From Rubrobacter sp. (GTDB lineage: Bacteria > Actinomycetota > Rubrobacteria > Rubrobacterales > Rubrobacteraceae): a stretch of DNA of 33,000 bases. Within the stretch, counting starts at the first letter, position 1; every line of letters starts with the position of its first letter. Where the stretch lies: contig JACDAJ010000098.1 of the NCBI GenBank assembly GCA_013695475.1, positions 1-33,000 of the forward strand, written 5' to 3'. The notes under the pieces are model-generated. The model saw only the letters and a list, made by a program, of their open reading frames with translations, was not told the DNA's origin and searched no databases. Made by a program: the position numbers and the translations under genes. Below are positions 1 through 3,126 of the stretch, piece after piece.

Positions 1-182
1 GTGGGTTGCCATCGCATGTCGAGGTCGAGGCGTATATAAGCGGATTGGATGAGGTCAGCTACGCGAAGTGTGAGGACGTGAAATCCATCTCGGTCGAGCG
101 GCTGGAAAGACGCTTCGGCGCCGTTCCTCCGGAGGTTCTCGCCCGCATCCGGCAGATTCTTCGTTATCTCTTCGAACTATAG
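1..182 (+). CDS. mazF: MazF/PemK-type endoribonuclease toxin, C-terminal part (5' end outside window)
   Basis: Frame 3 reads GLPSHVEVEAYISGLDEVSYAKCEDVKSISVERLERRFGAVPPEVLARIRQILRYLFEL*, matching the MazF C-terminal pattern (GL.S.V....GL...S.AKC.....S..RL..R.G.L). Stop TAG is at 180-182. Confidence 0.8.
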   Translation, partial: GLPSHVEVEAYISGLDEVSYAKCEDVKSISVERLERRFGAVPPEVLARIRQILRYLFEL

Positions 183-190
183 AGCGGTTT

Positions 191-790
191 TCATATTGAG
201 TGATCCCGAGGCGTTTTGTAGTCGCAATGCCCGAAATAGCCTCGGGCGTCCTCGCCCGTGACCGCCCGAATCGCCTGTGTGGCCGCCTCGAAGAGAGCTT
301 GGAGGGTTCTCGCTTTCGCTCTTCTCATGAGGTTCTTCACCTTGGGGAAGGCCTGCTCGACGGGGTTGAAGTCCGGCGAGTAGGGAGGGGGCAGCCATAG
401 CTCGCACCCCTTCTCCTCGATGAGCTCCCTGACCCACCCGCTCGTGTGCACGGAGAGGTTGTCCATGACCACGATCCGCCCGGACACGAGGCCCGGAGCG
501 AGGACCTCCCTCATGTAGACGCCGAAGGAGACGGTGTCCGACGAACCCTCTATGCCCATCGAAGGCCCCATACCCTCCAACGTCATGGACGAGACCAGGG
601 TGGCGTTCCTGTCCCAGTTCCTCGGGGCTTCTCCATTCGCCCTCCCGCCTTTGGGCGCCCTGGCGTAGCGCGGGGTGAAGGTCGTGTTCGTCGAGGACTC
701 GTCCACGAAGAGCAGGCGTTTGGGATCCACGCCCCTCATCCGCTCCCGAAAATCTCTTCTTTTCGCCTCGTCCCGCTCGGCGGCCGCCAA
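191..790 (-). CDS. IS630 transposase OrfB (DDE domain), probably expressed by -1 frameshift from OrfA
   Basis: LLFVDESSTNTTFTPRYARAPKG...VVMDNLSVHTSGWVRELIEEKGCELWLPPPYSPDFNPVEQAFPKVKN is a DDE_3 endonuclease signature. Confidence 0.9.
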   Translation of the reverse strand: MAAAERDEAKRRDFRERMRGVDPKRLLFVDESSTNTTFTPRYARAPKGGRANGEAPRNWDRNATLVSSMTLEGMGPSMGIEGSSDTVSFGVYMREVLAPGLVSGRIVVMDNLSVHTSGWVRELIEEKGCELWLPPPYSPDFNPVEQAFPKVKNLMRRAKARTLQALFEAATQAIRAVTGEDARGYFGHCDYKTPRDHSI

Positions 791-1155
791 CGTCTTTTTT
801 TATATGTCCATCCGAGCTTTTGCCGTATGGCCCGGCTCATCGCCGAGACGGACACGCGAACGCCCGTCTTCTCTCCCCGCGTCTCGCAGTGGCTCTGGAG
901 GGTGGCGTCGTCGTTCTCTTCGAGCTGGCTCCACAACATTCGCTTCTCCTCGACCGTGGCGAGGATGCGGCGCTTCCTGCCCGTGGAGAACCTCGGCGAG
1001 AGGTCTTCGCCCGCCCTCCTTCTCCTCAGCCATCGTTTGAGCGTCGTGAGCGAGATGGAGAAGGCCCCGACGACATCCCTCCTGGGAACGCCCCGCTCGA
1101 CCGCCTCGACCGCCCTCGCCCTGAGATCCTTCGAGTAAATACCCATGCGCGACAT
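736..1155 (-). CDS. IS630 transposase OrfA (HTH N-terminal part)
   Basis: MGIYSKDLRARAVEAVERGVPRRDVVGAFSISLTTLKRWLRRRRAGEDLSPR... is a typical IS630 N-terminal HTH. It overlaps OrfB. Confidence 0.85.
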   Translation of the reverse strand: MSRMGIYSKDLRARAVEAVERGVPRRDVVGAFSISLTTLKRWLRRRRAGEDLSPRFSTGRKRRILATVEEKRMLWSQLEENDDATLQSHCETRGEKTGVRVSVSAMSRAIRQKLGWTYKKRRWRPPSGTRRKEEIFGSG

Positions 1156-1193
1156 CCTCGCACATGGGCCACTTTATTTGCAAGCTGCTCTAG

Positions 1194-1239
1194 GCTACTT
1201 GCTAATACCATCGTAATGCCCAAAACGGGCGAAAGTAGC
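1194..1239 (+). terminator. Hairpin downstream of mazF, now separated from it by the IS
   Basis: GCTACTT...AAGTAGC outer arms with an inner GCCC-aaaac-GGGC stem. Confidence 0.4.
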
Positions 1240-1254
1240 GCGTGCGTATTCCAC

Positions 1255-1959
1255 TCACCGGCGACGGAGAATGAAGACCGCCGCCCCGAACGCCGCCGCG
1301 ACCACCACGACCCCCGGAAGCACCCTGAAACCGCTCGTCGTGGGAAGCGCTTCCATCCCGGATCCCGAGCCTTCGCCTTCGGACGCAGCTCCCCCCGAAC
1401 CGTCGTCTCCGACATCGAGGAGAGCCGACATGATGACCGTTCGGATGCGTGAGACACCGCCTTCGGAGCCGGATGCTCCGGGGTCGAAGTCTCCGGCTCC
1501 GAACTCGGGCGAGCCGAACCCGGACGAGCCGAACTCGGAGCCTCCCACGGGCGAGCCGGGAGCCGTCGGCGGGGGATCATACTGTGAACTGAACGGTGTT
1601 TCGGCATCCCCATCGGGAGCCTCTCCCCCGGCGCCTTCGGAACTTGGCCCGCCCGCGCCACTCTCGCCCGTGCCGTCCGCGTCTTCGGATTGAGCGTCTT
1701 CCTCGTCCTCATCGGCGGAGGCCTCGTCTTCCGTTTCGTCTCCGGCCTCGTCTTCCGTTTCGTCTTCGATTCCCTCGCCGTCCGGCGGGGTGGCGGGGTT
1801 TCGGGGGCTTTCCGAGGTGGGTGCGTCGGCGGTATCCACGGTCGAGGGTTCGTACCAAAGCTGGTAGAGGAGCCAGCCGTTGGCAGCGAAAATCACCGCC
1901 ATGAGAGCGACGATCACCTTCCGTGTATATAGTTGCTCCAACATCTCGAACACCGCCAA
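1255..1959 (-). CDS. Hypothetical acidic low-complexity surface-type protein with N-terminal hydrophobic segment and C-terminal LPTTSG-TM-RRR
   Basis: N-terminal VIVALMAVIFAANGWLLYQLWY; central D/E-rich and S/G/P-rich linker; C-terminal LPTTSGFRVLPGVVVVAAAFGAAVFILRRR. The start may be the downstream ATG (MLEQLYTRK). Confidence 0.65.
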   Translation of the reverse strand: MAVFEMLEQLYTRKVIVALMAVIFAANGWLLYQLWYEPSTVDTADAPTSESPRNPATPPDGEGIEDETEDEAGDETEDEASADEDEEDAQSEDADGTGESGAGGPSSEGAGGEAPDGDAETPFSSQYDPPPTAPGSPVGGSEFGSSGFGSPEFGAGDFDPGASGSEGGVSRIRTVIMSALLDVGDDGSGGAASEGEGSGSGMEALPTTSGFRVLPGVVVVAAAFGAAVFILRRR

Positions 1960-2252
1960 TGAAACAATGAAGCGCCGACCAAAACAATTCCCTGCCCGCG
2001 TCCGGATCGAAGCCGAAAGCCGCCGAAAGCCGTCTCGCGCACGATTCCTTATGCTGAGCCTATACTATTCTGAGTTTAGAAGACAATGGAATGAGGCGAA
2101 CAAGGCGCCTCCACACGAAATTCGGCACGGCTTAGCATTGCGGCTAATACCACGTTCCGCCGCCGTATGGCACATTACATCCTTTCCGGGGGCGGATACG
2201 TAGTAATCTGAAAAGCCCATTCGAACCCGAGACACGGAGTCAGGAGACTGAA

Positions 2253-2978
2253 TTGCGTCCGCAAACGTCACCGAAATGGAGGTTTCTCGCCCCCCTCCTC
2301 GCACTCACCCTCGTACTTGCCGCCGCATGCGGAGGCACAGACTCTTCCCAGGAACCCGCCGGAGAAGAGATGGACAGCGAGGAATCGTCCATGATGGAGG
2401 ACACCGCAATGGAGTCGTCCATGATGGAAGAAACGACCATGGATCTCTCGCAGCTCGCGGTCGGCCCCGAGGAGGAGGCGAACATGTCCCCCGCCGAGGG
2501 CATCGAGAAGGCCGAATCCCAGCCGCTCCCCGAAGACCCGCCCGAGGGCGTCGAGGTTTTCGACGCGACGACGAACGAGCTCGTTGACAATCCCTCGTAC
2601 GACCGAAGCCCGGCCACGAACGGCGACCACGACCCGTTCTGGTGGAACTGCGGCTACTACGACGAGCCGATTGACGAGGCGAAAGCCGTCCACAGCCTCG
2701 ACCACGGCGTCGTCTGGATCACATACTCCCCCGACCTCCCCGCCGAGGATGTCGAAACCCTCCGCGAATACGGTGCCGAGGAATACGTCATAGTCAGCCC
2801 GTACCCCGAGCAAAACGCCCCCGTCACGGCGACTTCGTGGCGCATACAGCTCGAGCTCGACGAGGCCGACGACCCGCGCCTCCGGCAGTTCGTGGACGAT
2901 TTCCGGGTCAGTGAGATCGCCCCCCTCGCGGGCAACGGATGCACCAAAGGCTCCGGGGAACCCGCCTTCTCCGGCTGA
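2253..2978 (+). CDS. DUF3105 domain-containing lipoprotein
   Basis: TTG start; lipobox LVLAAACGG; NPSYDRSPATNGDHDPFWWNCGYYDEP...VHSLDHGVVWITYSPD resembles the DUF3105 consensus. Confidence 0.75.
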   Translation: MRPQTSPKWRFLAPLLALTLVLAAACGGTDSSQEPAGEEMDSEESSMMEDTAMESSMMEETTMDLSQLAVGPEEEANMSPAEGIEKAESQPLPEDPPEGVEVFDATTNELVDNPSYDRSPATNGDHDPFWWNCGYYDEPIDEAKAVHSLDHGVVWITYSPDLPAEDVETLREYGAEEYVIVSPYPEQNAPVTATSWRIQLELDEADDPRLRQFVDDFRVSEIAPLAGNGCTKGSGEPAFSG

Positions 2979-3126
2979 CAATCTCCGGGGAGGGGGTTCA
3001 CAAAGGTACACCCTCCCTGATATGCTTCGAGTTTGTAAAATCCGTTCGGTCGCCGCTCGGTCTGAAAACAGGCGGCCATCGGATCATATGGGGCGTCAAC
3101 GAAAAACGAGCGAAGGAGGGGGTTCC

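Follow-up and report, generated by a model that had tools for sequence, protein, structure and literature searches.

A stop codon of the mazF toxin gene in a Rubrobacter contig has received an insertion sequence (IS) of the IS630 family: the element landed on the TA of the stop, and the stop was rebuilt from this TA and the G with which the element begins. Beyond the IS, the sequence is not that which naturally follows mazF but that of another chromosomal locus (locus B), and in alignments with a genome of the same genus (G001) the IS630 copy sits exactly on a synteny breakpoint. The window, i.e., the whole stretch of DNA that was analysed (33,000 nucleotides), begins where contig C269 of its own genome (G000) begins; this genome is a draft of 318 contigs. 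The best explanation overall, which we hold with good though not full confidence, is an insertion into the stop codon with automatic rebuilding of the stop, and, as the simplest account of the right flank, a recombination between two copies of the element leading to locus B. What the element marks is either a rearrangement or a join made during assembly, not a simple insertion. The features discussed below are the following.

3-182, plus strand: 3' end of mazF, comprising its last 59 codons and TAG (180-182) as the stop; the contig begins within the gene.
180-181: left target TA, formed by the first two bases of the mazF stop; contig C112 has this site without interruption (CTATAGGGACGC).
182-1190, minus strand: IS630-family insertion sequence, 1009 bp, with IS630/DDE_3 domains and TA-flanked terminal repeats; single copy in the assembled genome.
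182-202: left terminal repeat, GAGCGGTTTTCATATTGAGTG.
191-790, minus strand: transposase ORF B (DDE_3, 199 aa); PF13358 with an E-value of 2.7e-28, part 119-298 of NF033545, D30, D110, and E145 present.
736-1155, minus strand: transposase ORF A (HTH, 139 aa); HTH_Tnp_IS630 and HTH_23, part 2-128 of NF033545.
795-801, minus strand: run of seven A at the ORF A/ORF B frame change, likely a programmed -1 frameshift or slippage site.
1170-1190: right terminal repeat, reverse complement GAGCAGCTTGCAAATAAAGTG.
1191-1192: right TA, part of a CTAG site of locus B.
1191-21226: locus B, colinear with contig C59 of G001 from 29808 down to 10175, at ~75-88% identity.
1194-1239: weak hairpin in the end region of locus B, next to which it is also conserved in G001; it is no terminator of mazF.

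The end of mazF reads GAA CTA TAG in the letters of the window, and the initial annotation had read it in the same way, along with the TA at 180-181 and 1191-1192 and the G at 1193. The remaining part of the gene is predicted to encode the C-terminal half of a PemK/MazF fold domain: PF02452 (PemK_toxin) is matched above its gathering score (E-value of 1.9e-6) over profile positions 54-109 of 109, hence up to the last column. An IS-free mazF end is present in the same genome, on contig C112, which reads ...CTCTTCGAACTA TAG GGACGCTTTCC (CTATAG followed by GGACGC) and contains a single TA at this place. The C112 and window copies differ by one synonymous change at 128 (CCG for CCT) and are otherwise identical up to position 182, the 54 nt preceding the insertion site included. 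In G001, mazF terminates as ...CTCTTCGAGCTG TAA, and the MazF proteins of distant relatives likewise terminate in ..EL. It is because the uninterrupted C112 gene and that of G001 end as the window gene does that the TA of the stop codon can be identified as the landing site. The earlier proposal that the IS leaves MazF unchanged therefore holds: the copies from the same genome and from G001 stop at the same last residue, and neither has the longer C-terminus that would have betrayed a truncation by the IS.

Upstream, contig C62 encodes a sensor kinase and a response regulator, together with a 79-aa antitoxin-like ORF and the start of mazF. This is the organization of a MazEF/PemK type II toxin-antitoxin module, in which the 79-aa ORF is followed by the PemK/MazF-type toxin ORF with a 4-nt overlap; nothing notable distinguishes it from other such modules, and the IS leaves the toxin coding end as before. 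A literature search on IS630 together with mazF returned nothing on the present arrangement. Downstream of mazF, C112 bears a convergent ORF on the minus strand (L059:289-1296), which, from its sequence, we take to be a metal- or corrinoid-type ABC transporter substrate-binding protein. Taken together, C62 and C112 align colinearly, at ~80-88% identity, with contig C155 of G001, which holds its mazF region. C112 and C269 both start with exactly the 127 bases in which C62 ends, a pattern that would be expected of a forked assembly graph built on 127-base words. These common ends and the lone synonymous difference in mazF point to a strain mixture in the G000 assembly.

The element itself is a typical member of the IS630 family (IS630-Tc1/mariner, which includes IS630 itself and ISY100). 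With these, it shares a length of ~1 kb and a transposase combining a DDE_3 catalytic domain and an HTH domain (PF13358, 99 bits, and PF01710), as well as the duplication of a TA target, the preference for CTAG, and short imperfect terminal repeats (PMC2170065). The terminal repeats, GAGCGGTTTTCATATTGAGTG and GAGCAGCTTGCAAATAAAGTG, are identical at 16/24 positions in the best TA-flanked pair, including the outer GAGC, and relatives have the same ends. It differs from the family in that its transposase is split into two ORFs with an A-run at their junction; the two fragments match NF033545 with 52.6 and 98.3 bits, both short of the 100 bits set as the cutoff for the full length. Since the A-run and the frame change coincide not only in the window but also in most relatives included in the comparison (L078, L079, L081, L034, L084, and L087; the run is shorter in some), the transposase is probably produced by frameshifting or slippage, and not broken. 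Such a mechanism is documented for some IS630 members (PMC5009743), and a two-ORF transposase with an A-run is accordingly not new. The predicted catalytic D, D, and E are intact and conserved. The left end of the element (window 180-334), over its first 155 bases, is 97% identical to a sequence of G001 located at a third site (C162:44075-44229, i.e., L063:3076-3230). While this IS end is 97% identical, the DNA common to the two genomes is only ~75-88% identical, which suggests that the element has recently been mobile or transferred.

Whether the rebuilding of the stop codon is special was examined in relatives gathered from family genomes and from a genome collection; in the latter, ORF B alone retrieved no relative, and an alignment search retrieved 80. 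This yielded 68 TA-flanked insertions, the window copy included, with boundaries set by an automatic repeat search that may be wrong in a few cases. Their targets are mostly YTAR (CTAG in 33, CTAA in 12, TTAA in 7, the rest being others), and the outer base of the left terminal repeat is G in 45 of the 68. That IS630 elements target TA, as stated earlier, and duplicate it is published, and so is their preference for CTAG (PMC2170065, together with the titles of two works it cites, Tenzen et al. 1990 and Tenzen and Ohtsubo 1991). With targets that are mostly YTAR and ends that are mostly G-led, the preservation of the stop is automatic, because TA plus G rebuilds TAG. A gene that enters such a target in frame terminates there in TAG or TAA, and a stop is restored when TA is followed by G or A; the mazF case is what chance and the target sequence give. 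The same outcome is expected whenever an element that duplicates TA and has G- or A-led ends inserts into a TAG or TAA stop, and needs no special explanation.

One might still imagine that the element selectively targets stop codons, or is retained in them, as safe sites sparing the host gene. YTAR does contain TAG and TAA, and at least five relatives (L118, L130, L136, L141, and L165) lie inside the stop codons of genes whose Pfam domain reaches their end (Rce1-like, Oxidored_molyb, Dockerin_1, PG_binding_1, and PRiA4_ORF3). However, stop-codon positions are no more frequent among the insertions (8/29) than among the other CTAG sites of the same flanks (25/85; one-sided p of 0.66), a control relying on open-frame length and not on curated genes; when ORFs of at least 200 codons are considered, 7 stop-codon insertions are observed for 5.6 expected. 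A stop-codon preference of this group of elements is therefore not supported, and targeting of, or retention in, safe sites is very improbable. Just as hard to believe is the broader idea that G-led ends and a YTAR target have evolved to make stop codons safe landings, letting the elements accumulate at gene ends without protein damage. Stop preservation follows chemically from the sequences of the target and of the ends, and is not a trait that selection has shaped. In itself, the mazF stop case is ordinary; what deserves note is the breakpoint, along with the recent mobility of the IS.

At its right end, the IS630 copy abuts locus B. The comparison of the window with the mazF contig of G001 (C155) leaves only the mazF piece (3-184) in common, the right flank aligning with C59. 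In G001, the boundary of locus B (..CGCTAGGCTACTTGC..) reads ..ACTACCG CTAG GCTACTTGC, with the end of an IS701-like element on its left, and this IS701-type element has relatives in the genome of the window. Locus B is thus bordered at the very same CTAG by IS630 in one genome (window 1190-1192) and by an IS701-like element in the other (L062:2807-2810), as if the site had been reused. A search of the window's genome for the sequence that natively adjoins locus B on the left found it on no contig.

These flanks bear directly on the empty site that the initial annotation had reconstructed by joining them, a reconstruction that does not stand: the two flanks belong to two loci, the real site in C112 is CTATAG followed by GGACGC, and the right flank corresponds to C59 of G001. 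Probably, the empty site rebuilt from both flanks was never one single site. The simple insertion it implied would have mazF formerly adjoining TAGGCTACTTGC (mazF joined to GGCTACTTGC), the IS having split that site. The letters permit it, TA followed by G being present at both sides. Against this, mazF is adjoined by another sequence and by a convergent gene in the same genome and in G001, and the right flank lies elsewhere in G001, bounded at the same CTAG by the IS701-like element. A simple insertion is thus largely refuted, and we consider it most unlikely. The TA found on both sides of the element (180-181 and 1191-1192) is no proof of it, because every insertion of the IS630 family shows TA twice; conversely, the window copy alone does not prove a TA duplication, because its flanks derive from two loci. 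More generally, a TA at each end of an IS630 copy is no sufficient sign of a simple insertion.

In the mechanism we favour, the TA within the mazF stop codon received a cut-and-paste element of the IS630 family. This target resembles YTAR and its TA is duplicated; as the element begins with G, TA plus G gives TAG and leaves MazF unchanged. In the contig, the far side of the IS is attached to locus B, which is itself bounded by a CTAG site. As the simplest account, we infer a recombination, in one strain of a mixed population, between an IS630 copy in the stop of mazF and another at the CTAG that bounds locus B. Neither a second IS630 copy nor the reciprocal junction is present among the 318 contigs of the assembly, the recombination partner being thus unseen.

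The rival to this recombination is a chimeric contig: if the sampled population held one IS630 copy within mazF and another at locus B, the assembler would have passed through the identical 1009-bp element from the left flank of the first into the right flank of the second. Several observations are in keeping with such a join, as the window begins at a contig end inside mazF, the draft is fragmented, mazF is located at a fork of the assembly graph, and the element appears recently mobile when its identity in the sister species is compared with that of the common DNA. An identical repeated IS, however, normally breaks contigs at the IS ends, whereas C269 runs through it, and no other contig terminates in IS630. 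We regard a chimera as possible, if somewhat doubtful. Between the two, we lean slightly towards a real rearrangement, because the contig passes unbroken through the element. The breakpoint may reflect a real IS-mediated rearrangement in an actinobacterial population.

The initial annotation had also proposed that the IS separates mazF from a downstream hairpin. A hairpin can be drawn at 1194-1239, and its folding is no better than that of shuffled sequences (z of -1.2 and -1.1 for the two strands). The native downstream sequence of mazF in C112 is different and the hairpin belongs to locus B; as a mazF terminator, it is rejected on account of both the wrong locus and the lack of excess stability. 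An Rfam scan of window positions 1-3000 detected no RNA family, and terminator and promoter scans around the junction gave nothing useful. The suggestion that the minus-strand transposase might produce an antisense RNA also appears weakened, because the native downstream gene of C112 is itself convergent with mazF, and convergent transcription would be nothing new at this place. This native substrate-binding-protein gene is preceded by a cobalamin riboswitch, found at L059:1400-1608 (minus strand) and at L061:2211-2419 (plus strand).
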